Source: Phycisphaerales bacterium (GTDB lineage: Bacteria; Planctomycetota; Phycisphaerae; Phycisphaerales; UBA1924). Taken from it: DNA of 64,000 nucleotides. Location of the stretch: the NCBI GenBank assembly GCA_029260345.1, contig JAJDDK010000004.1, positions 62,001-126,000 on the forward strand. Reading direction: 5' to 3'. Below the pieces are notes generated by a model that did no database searches, was not told the origin of the DNA, and saw only the letters and a list, made by a program, of their open reading frames with translations. Each line of letters starts with the position of its first letter. Position 1 is the stretch's first letter. The translations under genes were made by a program, and so were the position numbers. This document shows, piece by piece, positions 9,255-60,285 of this stretch.

Positions 9255-10184
9255 ATGCCACGATTCCGACTCACCATTGCGTACGACGGAACCGCCTTTC
9301 ACGGATGGCAAAAGCAGCATGCGCCCGATCCGGAAAGACCCGGTGAACGCGTGCATTTGCGCACCGTGCAGGAAGTCGTTGAACAAGCGGTGCGCGACGT
9401 GGTGCGACAACCCGTGTTGCTGCAAGGCGCCAGCCGCACGGATTCAGGCGTGCACGCCAATGCGCAAACCGCGGCGTTCACCGTCACCGAAGATGAAAGC
9501 ATTTTCATCGAAGAAAATGCTGATTCGCCGCGCACGCCGCCCGTCTGGGAACGACTCACGGAAGACCGGTTTCGCCTCGCGCTGAACAGTCGACTTCCGG
9601 AAGATGTCGTCATCACACAACTCGCGCGCACGCGCGATGACTTTGAACCCATCAGCGATTGTGTTGCAAAGGGGTATCGCTACACACTGCACGCGGGGCT
9701 GGACCGACCATTGCGCGATCGTGCATTCGTGCATCATGTGCGCACGGAGTTGGATCTGGCGCGCATGCAGGACGCCGCGGCGCGATTCATCGGAGACCAC
9801 GACTTCGCCGCGTTCGCTGCCGCAGGGCATGGACGACTCAGCACGGTGCGCACGGTGTTTGAGTGCAGCGTCAAAGAGCTGTCGGGTGAAGGGCATCTAG
9901 GGATCAAGGCAACAAGGCAACAAGGGGAATCGGAAGCCTCGATCCCTCGATCCCTCGATGCCTCGATGCCTATCTCCCCCCATCGCTTTGCCATCGACAT
10001 CTCCGGCAACGGATTTCTGCACAACATGGTGCGCATCGTGGCCGGAACGATCGTCGAAGTCGGGCGCGGCCGCATGGAACCTGAACAGGTCGAGCGCGCC
10101 ATCAAGAGCGGCGACCGCCGCGACGCCGGGCCGACCTTGCCGCCGACAGGGTTGTGTTTGATGTGGATGAAGTATGGGGATTAG
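9255..10184 (+). CDS. truA: tRNA pseudouridine synthase A
   Basis: Isomerises uridines 38-40 in the anticodon arm of tRNAs. 309 residues from the ATG at 9255; the frame is open upstream to 8187 but that part is antisense to another gene. The catalytic motif GASRTDSGVHA places the Asp at residue 63, and the family C-terminal core FLHNMVRIVAGT is present. Residues about 215-240 (from GIKATRQQ to SLDASMP) are not part of the family; they are the translation of a short direct-repeat element also found in purQ. Another acidic insert lies near residues 80-100. The stop codon TAG lies inside a 79-bp inverted repeat (10178-10256) shared with the convergent PfkB gene. Confidence 0.93.
   Translation: MPRFRLTIAYDGTAFHGWQKQHAPDPERPGERVHLRTVQEVVEQAVRDVVRQPVLLQGASRTDSGVHANAQTAAFTVTEDESIFIEENADSPRTPPVWERLTEDRFRLALNSRLPEDVVITQLARTRDDFEPISDCVAKGYRYTLHAGLDRPLRDRAFVHHVRTELDLARMQDAAARFIGDHDFAAFAAAGHGRLSTVRTVFECSVKELSGEGHLGIKATRQQGESEASIPRSLDASMPISPHRFAIDISGNGFLHNMVRIVAGTIVEVGRGRMEPEQVERAIKSGDRRDAGPTLPPTGLCLMWMKYGD
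9898..9972 (+). repeat. Class B repeat inserted in truA
   Basis: A segment built from runs of AAGGCAACAAGG and of CCTCGATGCCTCGATGCC, translated in frame as part of TruA. A clearly related segment in the same orientation relative to its gene lies in purQ at about 11882-11990; both translate to end in SLDASMP. Confidence 0.75.
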
Positions 10185-10256
10185 GCCTCAGTGACCAGGA
10201 GCCGGGCCCCAGTTTCTGAAACTGGTGACTGGTCACTGGCTCCCGGGGCCTAATCC
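10178..10256. repeat. Class D inverted repeat carrying two stop codons
   Basis: GGATTAGGCC at 10178 and GGCCTAATCC at 10247 form ends of a 79-bp imperfect palindrome containing GTGACCAGGAGCC and its complement. The TAG in the left end stops truA and the TAG in the right end stops the PfkB gene. The hairpin could also act as a bidirectional terminator. A relative lies at 12351-12446. Confidence 0.75.
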
Positions 10257-11182
10257 ACTTTCACAATCCTCTGAAACTCATCCATCCGCTCTTTAAGCTC
10301 GCGTTCGTTCAACTCGGCCAGCCGATCGAGACTAAATGATTCAAGCGTAAAGCTGGCGATCACGGTGCCGCGCACGAGGCCTTCTTGCAGCATGTCGAAG
10401 GACACCGGCTCGCCGCCGAAGTGTTCGGCCGCGTGCCGCGCCGCGACGTGCCCCATCATGCCGCCGGCGAATGAATCACCCGCGCCCGTCGGATCAATCA
10501 CGATCTCCGCCGGATATGCAGGAAGAGCTGCGATGCCATCGCGATGCACCATCACGCAGCCGTGCTCGCCTTTTTTGATCACCGCGAAACTCGGACCAAG
10601 ATCAAGAATCGCTTTGCCCGCCGTGATCGGGTTGCGCTTGCCGGTGAGTTGCAGCGCTTCCTGATCGTTCAGCACCAGACCATCAATGTTCTTCAGCAAA
10701 TCTTTGAGGTCGTCGTTGGCCGTATCAATCCACAGATCCATCGTGTCCGCAACCGCGATCGCACGATCGGGAAAGTTCGACAGCAGCTCCTGCTGCACCG
10801 CCGGATGCGTGTTCGCGAGGAACACATACTTCGAATCGCGATACTCCTGCGGCGTCAGCGGCGGATGCTCCGTCAATACACCCAACTCCGTGAAGATCGT
10901 CTCACGGACATTCATGTTCTCAAGGTATTTCCCGCCCCATGCGAACGTTTTGCTCTCCGGGCGCTGCTCCATCCCGACGACGCACACGTTCGGAAAACGC
11001 GCCATCGTGTGACGGTGCTTGTCGTCAAAATCCCCGCCCACCGCAGCGACCATGCGCACCGGCGCAAAGAACGACGCGGCAGCAGAAAAATACGTCGCAC
11101 TCCCGCCCAGCACACGCTCAGCGCGGCCCGTGGGGGTTTCGACGGTGTCAATTCCGATAGTTCCGGTCACGATTAATGGCAT
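10250..11182 (-). CDS. PfkB-family sugar/nucleoside kinase
   Basis: 310 residues of the ribokinase/PfkB fold, transferring phosphate from ATP to a sugar or nucleoside hydroxyl. An N-terminal GGSATYFSAAAS fits substrate binding, LNDQEALQLTG lies near 171, and the family signature DPTGAGDSFAGG near 230-241 contains the catalytic base Asp236. The substrate is not evident; adenosine or ribose kinase-like enzymes are candidates. ATG at 11182 is preferred to the upstream frame because the fold begins here (MPLIVTGTIGID) and TACACT lies seven bases upstream. The final residues VD and the stop come from the edge of the class D repeat. Confidence 0.85.
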   Translation of the reverse strand: MPLIVTGTIGIDTVETPTGRAERVLGGSATYFSAAASFFAPVRMVAAVGGDFDDKHRHTMARFPNVCVVGMEQRPESKTFAWGGKYLENMNVRETIFTELGVLTEHPPLTPQEYRDSKYVFLANTHPAVQQELLSNFPDRAIAVADTMDLWIDTANDDLKDLLKNIDGLVLNDQEALQLTGKRNPITAGKAILDLGPSFAVIKKGEHGCVMVHRDGIAALPAYPAEIVIDPTGAGDSFAGGMMGHVAARHAAEHFGGEPVSFDMLQEGLVRGTVIASFTLESFSLDRLAELNERELKERMDEFQRIVKVD

Positions 11183-11189
11183 AGCGAAA

Positions 11190-11195
11190 AGTGTA
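11190..11195 (-). promoter_or_regulatory. -10-like element, PfkB gene
   Basis: TACACT on the minus strand, seven bases before the ATG at 11182, with no Shine-Dalgarno between. Confidence 0.4.
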
Positions 11196-11236
11196 GTCCA
11201 AAATCCGAAGCGCGCCCGTGGGGAAGCGGCTTCCCA

Positions 11237-11288
11237 CCACTCTCCCCCTGGGAGAGTCGGCAACGCGCAGCGTTGACGGTGAGGGCTC
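11237..11288. repeat. Class A palindromic repeat, intergenic
   Basis: ACTCTCCC CCT GGGAGAGT followed by TCGGCAACGCGCAGCGTTGACGGTGAGGG. The same two-part design (CTCTCCC stem, then a short stem and GGTGAGGG) recurs in nadA and between 59967 and 60342. It lies between the PfkB and purQ genes; the 248-bp gap holds no gene. Confidence 0.75.
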
Positions 11289-11430
11289 CCTGTCTACTCC
11301 CTCCTTCTCGCCTCATTTGTGAACAGCGCACGCATTTATTTGAGATGCTTTTCAGTGAGCGCACTTATCGCAAACGCACTGCTCAAGAGCAGTGGCACAC
11401 ACGGATCAGAAAGATGTCGGTTCGTGATGC

Positions 11431-12321
11431 TTACGCATTCACCGGCGCGCCGGCCTTCACATGCTCAACTGCGTTCAGAAACATCTTCAATCCCGGCGTC
11501 GGCGTGTTGAACAAGCCGCGATCAAGCCGCGTCCAGTACGGGTGCTGCGTCCACTCCGCATACCGCTCCGGATGCGGCATCAACCCAAAAACCAGCCCCG
11601 TCGCATCGCAGATCCCAGCAATCGCGTTCTCCGAACCATTTACGTTCTCGCCATAGCGCAGCGCCACCTGCCCACCATTTTCAATGGCGCGCAGCACGGT
11701 CTCATCCGCCGCGACAAAGCGACCTTCGCCGTGCGCGATCGGAAGCCGCAACACATCCGCGGCGTGCGCCTCATCACTCCACAACTCCTGCGTCCACACG
11801 CATCTTGATTCTGGGAACTCGACGGGAAGCCAGTGGTCGATGAATCGGGCGGTGACGTTGTCGGCGAGCGCAACGGATTGTTTGAGAGGCATCGAGGCAT
11901 CGAGGGAGCCAGGCATCGAGGCCTGCGCGCCCGCGCCTTCCCCACCCTTGCTGCCTCGCTGCCTTGATCCCTCGATCCCTCTCCCCGGAAGCAACCCAAT
12001 CTGCACCAGCGCCTGAAACCCGTTGCAGACGCCGATGATCGGAACGCCGCGCTCCACTGCCGCAAGCAGTTCGCCCAGCAGGCGCTCGCGCACCTTCACC
12101 GCCAGCACACGCCCCGAGGCAATGTCATCGCCATAACTGAACCCGCCGGGAAAGCCGATCAGGTCGGCGTCGCGCAGGCGCGATGGGTCCGCGATGAGGC
12201 GGTCAATATGAATGCGCTCAGCGCGGGCGCCGGCGAGTTCGAACGCGCGGCACATCTCACCGTCACAATTCGTGCCGGCGGTGCGGAGGATCAGGGCGAG
12301 GGGGCGGTCGGTGTCAGGCAT
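11431..12321 (-). CDS. purQ: Phosphoribosylformylglycinamidine synthase, glutaminase subunit
   Basis: Supplies ammonia from glutamine for FGAM synthesis in purine biosynthesis. 296 residues against the usual 220-260. The class I amidotransferase features are GFPGGFSYGDDIASG near 56-70, GVCNGF with nucleophile Cys99, and the His/Glu pair in GLMPHPERY near 255. Residues about 114-147 (GIEGSRQ to SLDASMP) are foreign to the family and encoded by a class B repeat; they sit right after the nucleophile elbow helix, where other PurQ proteins have a short variable loop. TACGAT is six bases before the ATG and no Shine-Dalgarno is visible. No purL or purS is in the window. Confidence 0.92.
   Translation of the reverse strand: MPDTDRPLALILRTAGTNCDGEMCRAFELAGARAERIHIDRLIADPSRLRDADLIGFPGGFSYGDDIASGRVLAVKVRERLLGELLAAVERGVPIIGVCNGFQALVQIGLLPGRGIEGSRQRGSKGGEGAGAQASMPGSLDASMPLKQSVALADNVTARFIDHWLPVEFPESRCVWTQELWSDEAHAADVLRLPIAHGEGRFVAADETVLRAIENGGQVALRYGENVNGSENAIAGICDATGLVFGLMPHPERYAEWTQHPYWTRLDRGLFNTPTPGLKMFLNAVEHVKAGAPVNA
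11882..11990 (-). repeat. Class B repeat inserted in purQ
   Basis: On the coding strand it reads ATCGAGGGATCAAGGCAGCG at one end and CCTCGATGCCTCGATGCC near the other, matching the truA element in order and frame. It is longer than the truA copy by a G+C-rich centre. Confidence 0.75.
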
Positions 12322-12350: not shown

Positions 12351-12446
12351 CCAGTCACCGGGAGTCAGGCCTCAGTCCGCAAGACTTGGCGGGTACGACA
12401 TTTCATATCCCTGGCGCCTGGTCGCTGGTCCCTGATGCCTCAATCC
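12351..12446. repeat. Class D repeat at the nadA stop codon
   Basis: Reads, on the minus strand, GGATTGAGGCATCAGGGACC followed by AGCGACCAGGCGCC and ends near GACTGAGGCCTGACTCCCGG. The GGATTGAGGC end supplies the nadA TGA. It relates to the element at 10178-10256 and fills the gap before purQ. Confidence 0.65.
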
Positions 12447-13810
12447 ACCCCCGCCAAATCACTCGTCAGCGACAACATCCGATCCAGCGCCGTCAGCGCC
12501 CACTGCCGCACATCGGGATGCACGCGCACCTGATTCACGACCTTGCCATCAGCCAGGTTGTCCAGCGTCCACAACAAGTGCGGCTCATCGATCCGGTACA
12601 TCGTCGTGCACAGGCACTGGCAGTCGGACAGGATGCGCACGGACACGCCGCGCGTGGCGGCTTCGCGCGCCAGGCGATTCACCAGATGCACTTCCGTGCC
12701 GATCGCCCACTTTGTGCCCGGTTCGGCCGCTTCAATCGCGCGGATGATGAACTCTGTTGAGCCGTTCAAATCAGCGCGGTCCACGACTTCCTTGCAGCAC
12801 TCAGGATGCACGAGGATGGTCGTCTCCGGCGACTCGCGCCGGATCTGATCGCAGTGTTCCGGCCGGAAGAGTTTGTGAACGGAGCAGTGCCCCGCCCAGA
12901 GAATCACTTTGGAATCAAGCAGCTGTTGTGCCGTCATCCCGCCCAGCGCTTCGCCACGCTGTGTGCGCTTCGGGTCGTAGACGCATGTTTCGGTCTCGAC
13001 ATCCATCCCGTACGCCGCGGCGGTGTTGCGCCCGAGGTGCTGATCCGGCATGAAAAGCAGCTTGATCTGCCCCCTCTCCCCTTTGGAGAGGCCGGGTGAG
13101 GAAGAGACTCGGCCCTCATCTGTCATCGCTTGCGCGATGACATCTTCTCCCAGAGGGAGAAGAGTTTTCCCCCTCTCCCCACGGGAGAGGGTGGCCTCGC
13201 GCAGCGAGGTCGGGTGAGGGGTCTGAATCTTGCCGCACAGCTCAGAGAGCTGTGTCACCTCACTCGCCGCTCCCCCCGCCATTGCCCACTCAAACACTTT
13301 CGCCGCGTTGCTCGACGTACACACCGCGCCGCCATGCTCACCGACAAACGCCTTGATCGCCGCCGTCGAATTCATGTACGTGATCGGCACGATGCGCCCT
13401 TGCCAACCCTGAGCCGCAAGCGACTCATGCATCGCGTCCCACGCATCGACCACGTCGTCGTAATCCGCCATGTCCGCCATGGAGCAGCCGGCGGAAATGT
13501 CCGGCAGGATCACATCAACATCATCAGGCGTGAGAATGTCCGCGGACTCGGCCATGAAGTGCACGCCGCAGAAAATGACGTGTTTGGCGCCGCGGGCCTG
13601 CACGCGATCCGCGGCAAGCTGCGACAGCTTGAACGAATCACCCGTGAAGTCCGCATGACGAATCACATCATCCGTCTGGTAGTGATGACCCAGGATGATG
13701 ACCGAGTCGCCCAGCTCCGCGCGGCGCGCATCAATCGCATCGCGCAGCTCATCCGCACTGAGGCGGAGATAGCGTTCCGGAAGCGAAGGTTGCCAGTGAG
13801 TGAACTTCAT
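12440..13810 (-). CDS. nadA: Quinolinate synthase A
   Basis: A [4Fe-4S] enzyme that condenses iminoaspartate with dihydroxyacetone phosphate in NAD synthesis. 456 residues, longer than usual. Family motifs are ILGHHYQTDDV near 40, IFCGVHFMAES and AVCTSSNA (two cluster Cys), MPDQHLG and HPECCKEV, and a C-terminal CQCLC supplying the third Cys. Residues about 195-247 (TPHPTSL to SKGERGQ) are the translation of three class A repeat units placed between the second Cys region and the PDQHLG motif. The stop lies in a class D repeat. No nadB or nadC is seen nearby. Confidence 0.92.
   Translation of the reverse strand: MKFTHWQPSLPERYLRLSADELRDAIDARRAELGDSVIILGHHYQTDDVIRHADFTGDSFKLSQLAADRVQARGAKHVIFCGVHFMAESADILTPDDVDVILPDISAGCSMADMADYDDVVDAWDAMHESLAAQGWQGRIVPITYMNSTAAIKAFVGEHGGAVCTSSNAAKVFEWAMAGGAASEVTQLSELCGKIQTPHPTSLREATLSRGERGKTLLPLGEDVIAQAMTDEGRVSSSPGLSKGERGQIKLLFMPDQHLGRNTAAAYGMDVETETCVYDPKRTQRGEALGGMTAQQLLDSKVILWAGHCSVHKLFRPEHCDQIRRESPETTILVHPECCKEVVDRADLNGSTEFIIRAIEAAEPGTKWAIGTEVHLVNRLAREAATRGVSVRILSDCQCLCTTMYRIDEPHLLWTLDNLADGKVVNQVRVHPDVRQWALTALDRMLSLTSDLAGVD
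13069..13224. repeat. Three class A repeat units inside nadA
   Basis: Units at about 13073-13100, 13110-13165 (opposite orientation) and 13170-13221. Each has a CTCTCCC/GGGAGAG-type stem; the third has the complete GCCTCGCGCAGCGAGGTCGG second stem and GGTGAGGGG end. All are translated in frame within NadA. Confidence 0.85.
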
Positions 13811-13886
13811 GACGGCTGAGTGAGAATGCGCGGTTCATCCGCCGCTCGTGACTCAGCCAATTCTAGGCAGCGACGCCAAGAAAGAG

Positions 13887-13921
13887 TTCACCGGTGGGAC
13901 GGGCGTCTCGCCCGTCCGAAG
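13887..13921. repeat. Class C palindromic repeat, intergenic
   Basis: TTCACCGGTGGGACGGGCGTCTCGCCCGTCCGAAG, containing the palindrome GACGGGCG TCT CGCCCGTC. Two more copies, in opposite orientation to each other, are inside metH at 53716-53800. Lies between nadA and the PilZ gene. Confidence 0.8.
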
Positions 13922-52873: not shown

Positions 52874-55800
52874 TCAGACATTGAAATACTTGGCTTCCGG
52901 GTGATGCACGATCAATGCGCTCGTGCTTTGCTCCGGGTCAATCTGCCAGTTCTCAGTGAGAGCGCAGCCGATGCGCTCCGGCTGAAGCAAACGGAAGAGC
53001 TTTTCCTGATCGCTCATCTCCGGGCAGGCGGGATAGCCAAAGCTGTACCGCGAACCGCGGTATTTTTGCGTGAAAAGCTCGCGGATCTTCGTCGCGTCCT
53101 CGCCGCCAATGCCGAGTTCCTGACGCATGCGCTTGTGCCACATTTCCGCCAGCGCTTCGGCGCACTCGACGCCGAACCCGTGCAGGTAGAGGTACTCCGT
53201 GTAGTCATCTCGCTCGAAGAGATCGCGAGCCCGACGTGAAACTTCTTCGCCAACGGTCACGCAGGACAGCCCCAGCACATCGCGCTCCGGCTCGCCGACG
53301 TCCTTGAAGAAGTCCGAAATGCACAGGCGCTTGCGGCTTGATTGGCGCGGAAAACTGAAGCGCTCGATCTCGCGCGTGCGATCGTCCGGGTCAAAGACGA
53401 TCAGATCATCACCGTCGCTCGCAACCGGCCACCAGCCGTACACCACACGCGGCGTCAGCACGTCTTCATCGCGACACATGTCACAGAAGCGCTGGAAGAT
53501 CGGATCAACGTCCTCGCGCACCTGACGCTCGAACTCTTCGTCACTCTTGCGGCCCTTTTTGTACTGCCACTGCCCGCGATACAGCGCGACTTTGTTCACG
53601 AACGGATACACATCGTCGAGCTTGATGCCTTCGACCACGCGCGATCCCCAGAACGGCGGCTCGGGAACATCCACATCACGCGCCACATCGCTGCGTTGGG
53701 CGACCGCAAGTGCGGGTTCACCGGTGGGACGGGTGTCTCGCCCGTCCGTGTCATCAGCGACCCCATCTCCGGAAGACGGGCGGGACGCCCGTCCCACCGA
53801 CTCCTGTGCTTTTCGTGACTTGGACTTCGCAATCTGCTCCTCAGCCCGAGCGCGCTTCTCCAGACGATCCGCCACTTCCTGATCAAGCGAGTCGAAGTCG
53901 CGCTTCATGATGTGATCCATCAAGCGCAACCCTTCAAATGCGTCGCGCCCGTAGTACACCTTGCCGCTGGAATACGTCGTGCGCAGTTCCGTCTCGCAGT
54001 AATGTCGCGTCAGCGCGGCGCCGCCGAGCATCACCGGCGTGGCGACGGAACGCTCAGCCATTTCGCGCAAGTTGTCCTGCATGACCCCGACACTCTTGAC
54101 CAGCAACCCCGACAGCCCGATCGCATCGGCGCCGTACTCTTCGAGCGCGCTCATGATGTTTGCGATCGGCTGCTTGATGCCGAGGTTCACGACTTCGTAG
54201 CCGTTGTTTGTCAGAATGATGTCAACAAGATTCTTGCCGATGTCGTGCACATCGCCCTGCACCGTCGCAAGGATGATCTTTCCCTTGCTGCCGCCGCCCT
54301 CAACTTTGGGCATGTGCGGCTCCAAATGCGCCACGGCGCCCTTCATCACCTCCGCCGATTGCAGCACAAACGGCAACTGCATTTCGCCCTTGCCGAAGAG
54401 TTCACCAACGACCTTCATGCCGCCGAGCAGGTGATCGTTGACAATATCCAGCGCCTCGTATTTCGTGAGCGCTTCGTCGAGCGAGGCCGTCAATCCATCC
54501 TTTTCGCCATCAATGATGTGGCGCTGCAAACGTTCTTCAAGCGGCAGGTCCGCCAGCGACACACGCGCCTCGGCGACGCCTTCTTCGTCATCCGGAAAGA
54601 GCTTGATAAAGACGTGCAGCGGATCAAAGCCCTCGCGCCGCTTGTCGTAGATCAAGTCCAATGCCGCGTTCCACCGCTCATCACTGATCTTGGTCTTGGG
54701 AAGAATCTTCGACGCATGCACAATCGCGCTGGTCAGGCCGACTTCGCGCAGCTCATGCATGAACACGCTGTTCAGCACCACGCGAGCGGCCGGCTTCAGA
54801 CCGAATGACACATTGGAAAGCCCAACCACCGTGTTGCACTGCGGGAGGCGCTCGCTGATGAGCCGCGTGCCTTCGATGGTTTCCAGCGCCAACCGCCGGT
54901 CCGCCTCAACGCCCGTGGTCACGGGAAGCACCAGCGGATCGAAAAACAAATCCTCCGGCGCGATGCCGTATTTGTTGCATGCCAGATCATGAATGCGTTC
55001 GGCAATCTCGATTTTGCGCTTCGCCGTCTTGGCCATCGCTTCCTGCGGATCTTCGTCGATGGTTCCTGCAACGATCGCGGCGCCGTACCGCTTCGCCATG
55101 CGACAAATCTCGGCGAGCTTCTCTTCCCCGTCTTCGAGATTCATCGAGTTCAGGATGCACTTGCCGCCGGCCCGCTTGAGCCCCGCCTCCATCACATCAA
55201 TCTGCGTGGAGTCGACCATGAGCGGCGTCGGCGCCTGGCGCACGAAACGTGACACGACTTCGTCCATGTCAGTGACGCCGCCGCGACCAACGAAGTCGAC
55301 GCAGACATCAATCAGGTGCGAGCCGTCGCGTAACTGCTCGCGCGCCATGGAGACCAAGCCATCCCAATCGTCTTCATTGAGCAGGCGCTTAAACTTGCGC
55401 GAGCCGTTGGTGTTCGTGCGCTCGCCGACGATCAGGATTGAGCTGTCCTGGTCGTACTCCACCGGTGAATAGAGCGACGTGCAGGACGGCTTCATCGGCG
55501 TTTTTTCGACGTCGGCGATCATGGCGCCGTCAAGCGCATTCGCCAGCGCTTCGATGTGCTCCGGCGTCGTGCCGCAACAGCCGCCGACGATCGAGACGCC
55601 GAACTCCGTCACGAAGCGCGCCACCGAATCTGCAAATGGCTTCGGTTTCAGCGGATATTCCGTGCGCCCTTCGACCAGCACCGGTAAACCGGCATTGGGA
55701 ACAATCGCGATGTGCCGATCCCAGTGGCGGCTCAGCCAGCGCACATGCTCGGTCATTTCAACCGGGCCCGTGGCGCAGTTCAGACCGAGCGATGCGATCG

Positions 55801-59968: not shown

Positions 59969-60016
59969 AATCCTCCCCCTCCCGCCTCGCGGGAGGGGTT
60001 AGGGGAGGGTTCTCCC
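59969..60016. repeat. Palindromic repeat, CCTCCC type
   Basis: CCTCCCCCTCCCGCCTCGCG continued by GGAGGGGTTAGGGGAGG; a long inverted repeat at the end of the permease gene. Confidence 0.7.
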
Positions 60017-60073
60017 ATCACCTCTCCCTTTGGGAGAGGTCGGCGAAGCAAAGCGCCGCCGGGTGAGGGGCGA
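60017..60073. repeat. Class A repeat unit
   Basis: CACCTCTCCCTTTGGGAGAG stem, then GTCGGCGAAGCAAAGCGCCG and GGTGAGGGG. Almost identical to 60181-60237. Confidence 0.85.
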
Positions 60074-60121
60074 GTTCCTTCCTTCATGATCAGCGAACGC
60101 GCCGGAAAGCAGGACACATTC

Positions 60122-60174
60122 GGCCCTCACCCGACCTCGCTGCGCTCGGCCACCCTCTCCCAATGGGAGAGGGA
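60122..60174. repeat. Class A repeat unit, opposite orientation
   Basis: GCCCTCACCCGACCTCGCTG, CGCTCGGCCACC and CTCTCCCAATGGGAGAG, the reverse of the nadA third unit. Confidence 0.85.
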
Positions 60175-60180
60175 CTCGCT

Positions 60181-60237
60181 CCACCTCTCCCTTTGGGAGA
60201 GGTCGGCAAAGCAAAGCGCCGCCGGGTGAGGGTCGAG
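60181..60237. repeat. Class A repeat unit
   Basis: Copy of 60017-60073 with few changes. The 403-bp gap 59967-60369 is almost wholly repeats and carries no gene. Confidence 0.85.
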
Positions 60238-60285
60238 TTTCGCCCGTTCGATTCATTAAGAAAGAATAAATCAAGTCAAACATCT

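Follow-up and report, generated by a model that had tools for sequence, protein, structure and literature searches.

How do two unrelated enzymes come to carry the same stretch of sequence inside their genes? The question is raised by truA, for tRNA pseudouridine synthase A, and purQ, for phosphoribosylformylglycinamidine (FGAM) synthase subunit I, which lie close together in a 64-kb stretch of a Phycisphaerales genome (contig JAJDDK010000004.1, positions 62,001 to 126,000; hereafter the window). An initial annotation of this DNA had pointed to related sequence in residues about 215–240 of TruA and about 114–147 of PurQ, and had proposed a mobile or copied element inserted in a variable loop of each protein. 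We find the related sequence at both places (residues about 113–147 in PurQ), and the inserts have, as described there, the same gene-relative orientation, the same phase at both ends and the same ending, SLDASMP. Judged by their sequences, the two inserts are copies of one two-armed palindromic element. We consider it likely that they represent two copies of a dispersed, probably selfish palindromic repeat, with arms made of octamer arrays, that is tolerated in loops.

The inserts share an architecture in which a degenerate octamer, RAGGSANC, is repeated in tandem and followed, after a spacer, by inverted octamers of the form CCTCGATS, which makes an imperfect palindrome. On the coding strand, the truA insert reads TAGGGATC-AAGGCAAC-AAGGCAAC-AAGG, spacer, CCTCGATC-CCTCGATC-CCTCGATG-CCTCGATG-CCT, and the purQ insert reads GAGGGATC-GAGGGATC-AAGGCAGC-GAGGCAGC-AAGG, spacer, CCTCGATG-CCTGGCTC-CCTCGATG-CCTCGATG-CCT. 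Tandem Repeats Finder reports a period of 8 in the inserts, a head-to-tail array of short units as in arrays resembling the cyanobacterial short tandemly repeated repetitive (STRR) sequences, which are short tandem heptamer repeats. The two inserts align collinearly through both arms with a local score of 72 (z 22), against a mean of 15.4 (sd 2.5) and a maximum of 28 in 2000 dinucleotide shuffles, and each of the 14 top-scoring stretches of the window overlaps one or the other insert. A collinear alignment so far above dinucleotide shuffles is more than shared low complexity and bears out the claim of a sequence copied into two unrelated enzymes. Compared with shuffles, predicted hairpin stability reaches z –2.0 (truA) and –3.9 (purQ) in RNA folding and z –1.7 and –3.6 in DNA folding, so that the truA hairpin stands just moderately above its shuffles. 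The sole Rfam matches fell below the gathering score and are taken as chance, and 12 lone CCTCGATGCC matches outside the arrays, without neighbouring units, were set aside in the same way.

Table 1. Host genes, inserts and arms in the window (positions count from its first letter)
Feature	Position	Strand	Evidence or remark
truA (tRNA pseudouridine synthase A), host gene	9255..10184	+	Open reading frame (ORF); Pfam PF01416; NCBIfam TIGR00071; PDB TruA matches
Two-armed octamer palindrome in truA, residues ~215-240	9898..9971	+	Tandem Repeats Finder, alignment
Sense arm (RAGGSANC)n of truA insert	9898..9925	+	
Inverted arm (CCTCGATS)n of truA insert	9937..9971	+	
purQ (FGAM synthase subunit I), host gene	11431..12321	-	ORF; Pfam PF13507; NCBIfam TIGR01737; PDB 3d54_D (PurQ/PurL)
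Two-armed octamer palindrome in purQ, residues ~113-147	11884..11983	-	Tandem Repeats Finder, alignment
Sense arm (RAGGSANC)n of purQ insert	11946..11983	-	purQ coding strand = minus
Inverted arm (CCTCGATS)n of purQ insert	11884..11922	-	
nadA insert (other palindromic family)	13045..13222	-	Ends approximate; gene 12440-13810

The inserts do not look ancestral when the orthologous sequences are compared. TruA was matched in 60 of the 61 genomes searched and PurQ in all 61, and the best-scoring 30 of each were retrieved and aligned. Among these best 30 of 60 TruA and best 30 of 61 PurQ sequences, the element occurs in the genome of the window only (hereafter the host genome), and the 29 other retrieved orthologues of each gene are without it, which speaks against an ancestral insert in either family. 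Against the NCBIfam models, both products score just below the cut-off (TruA, 141.3 bits with a cut-off of 142.85 for TIGR00071; PurQ, 169.8 with 177.8 for TIGR01737). The AlphaFold models (mean pLDDT 86.9 for TruA and 88.7 for PurQ) place the TruA insert between strands 198–209 and 243–252, with pLDDT 49–51 in the insert blocks, and that of PurQ at residues about 111–145, with blocks at pLDDT 52–65 and a short low-confidence helix at 119–123. According to these models, both inserts sit in loops, as the initial annotation had supposed, and these are modelled with low confidence. Its description of the loops as variable holds for TruA, where loop length ranges from 17 to 58 residues across the bacterial family (49 in the host genome), and much less for PurQ, where the host genome has 42 residues against 19–28 in 26 other parsed rows (3 of the 30 rows were unparsed and are uncounted). 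Other genera have repeats of other kinds in the TruA loop, namely a GGAGFQPAS-type stretch in G017 and, in DNA read by eye, octamer arrays unlike the present one in G008 and in G029.

The search for further copies suggested at the outset was productive within the host genome. A pattern of 2.5 units gave 44 exact matches, against 1 for a reversed control, and 94 against 26 when two mismatches were allowed; by our own grouping of pattern matches, the close ones form about 13 array loci. The arrays inside genes are those of truA and purQ and a one-armed copy in ubiD (C7:49950), which lies in the C-terminal domain or at its edge. The remaining arrays appear intergenic, several of them immediately 3' of a stop codon. 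No period-8 array of another sequence was found by Tandem Repeats Finder in 462 kb of this genome (the window and 20 sampled stretches), the three period-8 rows all lying in the truA and purQ inserts. Elsewhere on C7, a degenerate heptamer array of TGAGATT with 8.7 copies (L235:10771-10831) adjoins a TGCCACTGCTCTTGAGCAGTG repeat.

Relatives carry two-armed, in-frame copies in mqnC (G099 and G006), dnaE (G006 and G128), purL (G121) and uvrB (G162), and one-armed copies in carB (G128), clpB (locus L138) and mqnC (G003). In-frame insertion was judged against insert-free orthologues for truA, purQ and mqnC, and by position and family matches alone for dnaE, purL and uvrB. The L138 protein had been taken for ClpC until NCBIfam made it ClpB; arrays upstream of accC and ruvX precede the apparent start and are uncounted as coding copies; and of ten further array-spanning ORFs, eight have no Pfam family and two have matches away from the array, and we claim none of them. 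A comparison of presence and absence such as the initial annotation had proposed was obtained at another gene, mqnC, where G099 and G006 have the insert and the congeneric G128, at 85–90% DNA identity, does not. The MqnC loop measures 39 residues in both carriers and 18 in G128, and 12–21 residues in 23 of 40 parsed genomes (2 of 42 rows were unparsed, and the parsed row G033, with a wrong anchor, is uncounted), the short loop being the commoner state. In G013, G008, G021 and the host genome, the MqnC loops have inserts that read as other repeat families.

Across the bacterial family, a little-known one within the Planctomycetes, exact array matches occur in 38 of 120 sampled genomes, 12 of which have just 1–3 matches, and the matches sum to 621 against 43 for the reversed control. 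Some of the control matches are probably another octamer family, because GAGCGACG arrays fit the reversed pattern. In a sample of the phylum, 10 of 294 genomes match, or 9 of 287 once 7 genomes of the same family are removed. With a strict gapped pattern for both arms, 4 of 163 genomes gave a match, the host genome not among them; the pattern was rejected as a measure of frequency because it misses degenerate copies such as those of truA and purQ.

The octamer unit has a coding property that bears on how such inserts may survive in genes. Whichever of the three frames is used, an array of 8-nt units encodes the same cyclic peptide of eight residues; an array of GAGGGATC gives EGSRDRGI and its complement DPSIPRSL, both stop-free. 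The units AAGGCATC and AAGGGATC have a stop when read antisense and AAGGCAAC has none. The frame shared by truA and purQ, which had been offered in support of a common element, is real but weak evidence, because an octamer array gives one peptide whatever the frame; it follows for the most part from the octamer period, the phase at the array ends being the sole frame feature that could differ, and we have dropped it as evidence of origin. Shared orientation is weak evidence too, because an imperfect palindrome reads RAGG...CCTC on either strand. The stop-prone AAGG-type unit accounts for 1 of 26 units in the translated antisense arms of eight gene copies, against 16 of 34 in the sense arms of these inserts (p 2e-4) and 20 of 48 in six arrays of the host genome outside recognised genes (p 4e-4), in crude pattern counts that are non-independent, two orthologous pairs being included. 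The direction of this scarcity in antisense arms fits selection for an open frame.

A scenario consistent with these observations is that copies spread to new sites, most of them ending outside genes, and that those landing in genes would persist only with an open sequence and a disordered surface loop in the protein to receive them. Survival would be aided by a sense array of common units, stop-free in any frame and encoding a hydrophilic cyclic peptide of eight residues (E/K-G/A-S-R-D/H-R/Q-G-I), and by an inverted arm that could stay open with GAGG-type units. We infer that copying occurs in trans and that the inserts are nearly neutral for the host; the core genes are not broken by them, apparently because the inserts contribute just a floppy loop.

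Other repeats lie in the same neighbourhood. The gene nadA has an in-frame insert of a different palindromic family, CCTCTCCC..GGGAGAGG..CGGGTGAGG (Table 1), and truA, purQ and nadA, all three with repeat-derived inserts, fall within 4.6 kb. The Pfam and NCBIfam matches of NadA come in two stretches, and its best PDB alignment breaks at residues 173–277. The same family recurs at window positions 13171 and 60012-60239 and as an in-frame insert in mqnC of the host genome (G000:C4:371878-372040, L291). A third repeat family, CGGTGGGACGGGCGTCTCGCCCGTCC, occurs at window positions 13870-13918, 53700-53748 and 53775-53799, and the peptide GGTGVPPV inside MqnC of G013 looks like a translation of it. 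Degenerate intergenic repeats of a heptamer-like kind (CTGGTCACTGG type) lie at window positions ~10190-10255 and 12355-12445. The relative G090 has a two-armed octamer palindrome of unrelated sequence (L339:7007-7133), made of 5.6 copies of ACAGTGAC, a spacer of about 25 nt and 7.9 copies of CTCCGTCA, directly after a TGA in the likely upstream gene.

Several observations weigh against a dispersed repeat as the source of the truA and purQ inserts. Target-site duplications, which the initial annotation had suggested looking for, are not visible by eye at truA, at purQ or in the filled and empty mqnC pair (85–90% DNA identity); a fixed length or fixed ends of the arrays were not found, both being variable; and no transposase was found next to the inserts. 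Of the proposal of a mobile element, the data support the copying and not transposition, and part of the growth of the arrays may happen on the spot. The 11 arrays of the host genome outside the window all look one-armed by eye, without a palindrome; the unfilled mqnC site of G128 reads GAAGAAAGCGACG at the place of GAAGGGAGCGAGG in G099, a difference that would also fit growth in place from a seed; and relatives carry period-7 and period-8 arrays of other sequences. The reversed control pattern also matched in 19 of 120 family genomes, and, of the 9 genomes from outside the family that are positive, 4 have control matches about as often as pattern matches. To these points are added that the genomes are metagenome-assembled, that the unit counts are non-independent, and that the insert-free orthologues aligned are those of truA, purQ and mqnC. 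The main rival explanation builds on several of them: a RAGG-like seed grows by replication slippage, template switching on the quasi-palindrome adds the second arm, and nothing moves. Variable lengths and ends, the mostly one-armed arrays of the host genome, the seed-like sequence at the empty mqnC site and the other octamer and heptamer arrays of relatives, including the unrelated two-armed one in G090, all suit growth in place. Yet random seeds should differ, and the 462 kb of host genome held one period-8 sequence; this degenerate octamer turns up again in 38 of 120 genomes of the family, and the truA and purQ inserts match collinearly across both arms. We regard growth in place as a rather unlikely origin. 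A service to the host, such as a regulatory mRNA hairpin or a useful protein loop, could invoke the stable predicted hairpins, but the patchy occurrence in unrelated enzymes, the absence from relatives, the low-confidence loop position in the models and the filling of the same loops by other repeat families in other genera make it very improbable. An origin of each insert as an ancestral loop, or as an artefact of assembly, is hardly credible: TruA and MqnC loop lengths do vary in the family, but orthologues lack the insert, the same element is found in independent genomes and genes, and the reading frames are intact.

A further explanation concerns the route of dispersal, in which the arrays are elements of the repetitive extragenic palindromic (REP) type, moved in trans by REP-associated tyrosine transposases (RAYTs) or other Y1 (IS200-like) tyrosine transposases. 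The host genome encodes a Y1 transposase (E 6e-31, C5:684044; RAYT and other Y1 subtypes are not distinguished). Y1_Tnp (PF01797) is matched at E up to 1e-15, a cut-off picked after seeing the list, in 24 of 26 genera with arrays and in 14 of 48 genera without them (Fisher 1e-7), and at any level in all 38 array genomes against 55 of 82 others (9e-6); the association is kept when just genomes with at least four array matches are counted as array genomes (19/26 vs 33/94, 7e-4). DDE_Tnp_1 shows no association (14/26 vs 25/48 genera), nor does RVT_1 (8/38 array genomes vs 15/82 others); RVT_1 has no match in the host genome, and a link to reverse transcriptase was not supported. The palindrome core GGCATGCCCA, seen 3 times in 462 kb, is no more than 200 bp away from three of the 13 host-genome arrays, a CATGCCCACGC palindrome lies about 300 bp from the host's Y1/RAYT-like transposase (G000:C5:684044-684388, L236), and five host-genome arrays begin with GTAGG by eye. 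On the other side, two adjacent octamer units were found at 0 of 25 loci around Y1 genes, and other palindromes lie near the transposase in 3 of 4 loci examined. GTAG stood at the boundary of 2 of 79 arms in an automatic check that depends on exact register and overlooked three of the five arrays recognised by eye. Neither the truA nor the purQ insert has GTAG. Five of 13 host-genome arrays have it by eye, so the automatic count is too low, and a constant GTAG end tag, suspected from those five arrays, was not borne out on the 79 arms. The array-richest genus (G084, G121) has weak Y1 matches only, genomes matched by the reversed control lean likewise (12/19 vs 40/101, p 0.08), and a poorly resolved single-gene tree yields just 2 supported independent pairs, too few for a test. 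On balance, dispersal by Y1 transposases seems to us improbable, if worth keeping in mind.

We put forward tentatively, as a possibility on the doubtful side, a wider process by which the bacterial family would generate arrays of 8-nt units, many of them two-armed, and spread them, with Y1/RAYT transposases perhaps helping the dispersal. Unrelated unit sequences are found in the family, namely RAGGSANC, GAGCGACG, CAGCGAGA, and GTGACACA with CGGAGTGA. As a unit of eight bases is no multiple of three, every such array would be a frame-independent coding cassette, and because of this the truA and mqnC loops could be refilled repeatedly, with different repeat families across genera.

For the dispersed octamer palindrome itself, a wider interest lies in the genes that it has entered. 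Rickettsia supplies most of the known cases of palindromic repeats lying in frame in core genes, alongside REP cases in several phyla. A case from Planctomycetes in similar genes (dnaE, uvrB and truA), for which congeners offer both a filled and an empty site, provides a further lineage in which to test how proteins gain segments from selfish DNA. What the octamer design suggests is a rule, that a unit not divisible by three and stop-free predicts which repeats survive inside genes, and the finding carries a warning for annotation, such loops not being conserved protein features. Among the titles and abstract openings listed in literature searches, none described octamer palindromes in Planctomycetes genes.

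The closest parallels are the Rickettsia palindromic elements (RPEs), which are described as repeats of 100–150 bp, in their own sequence groups, that lie in unrelated conserved genes with the frame kept and also outside genes, RPE-4 sitting in dnaE of Rickettsia (PMC3767692; PMC2229807). The element described here resembles RPEs and their Wolbachia counterparts, as far as those accounts go, in being a frame-preserving palindrome in unrelated conserved genes, dnaE included. It differs, in a comparison by description and not by sequence, in its planctomycete host and in arms that are octamer arrays of variable length; the palindromic copies are those of truA, purQ and four genes of relatives, the 11 further host-genome copies looking one-armed. 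Intragenic REPs of the GTAG and CGTC families are short palindromes in genes of several phyla, many for DNA synthesis or repair; reported cases include the gene for tRNA pseudouridine synthase A in Stenotrophomonas maltophilia and, in R. conorii, the genes uvrB and dnaE, and REPs of the GTAG family can provide the TAG stop of flanking genes (PMC3733652). Our element likewise consists of short palindromes in genes, including truA, uvrB and dnaE, and the host genome has a RAYT-like Y1 transposase. Unlike the GTAG REP/RAYT system as outlined there, its arms have no constant GTAG and are octamer arrays instead of one palindrome of 20–40 bp, and the arrays do not lie beside Y1 genes (0 of 25 loci). 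By analogy, the octamer palindrome works like RPEs and intragenic REPs. Set against miniature inverted-repeat transposable elements (MITEs), it has inverted arms, with no target-site duplication visible by eye at truA, purQ or the mqnC pair. The TAACTGA heptamer repeats offer a partial parallel, for they too have one short unit, not divisible by three, at many sites with a patchy distribution and no known mechanism, in the featured genome mostly directly upstream of start codons (PMC4679880); the present unit has eight bases instead, and several of its copies within genes have two arms. Inverted repeats inside protein genes are also reported from nematomorph mitochondria, gained and lost between species, perfect and up to 142 bp per arm (PMC6649704). 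No dispersed octamer family is described in the available part of that account, and the arms here are imperfect octamer arrays. What sets the present element apart from these known kinds is its octamer-array architecture and its planctomycete host.

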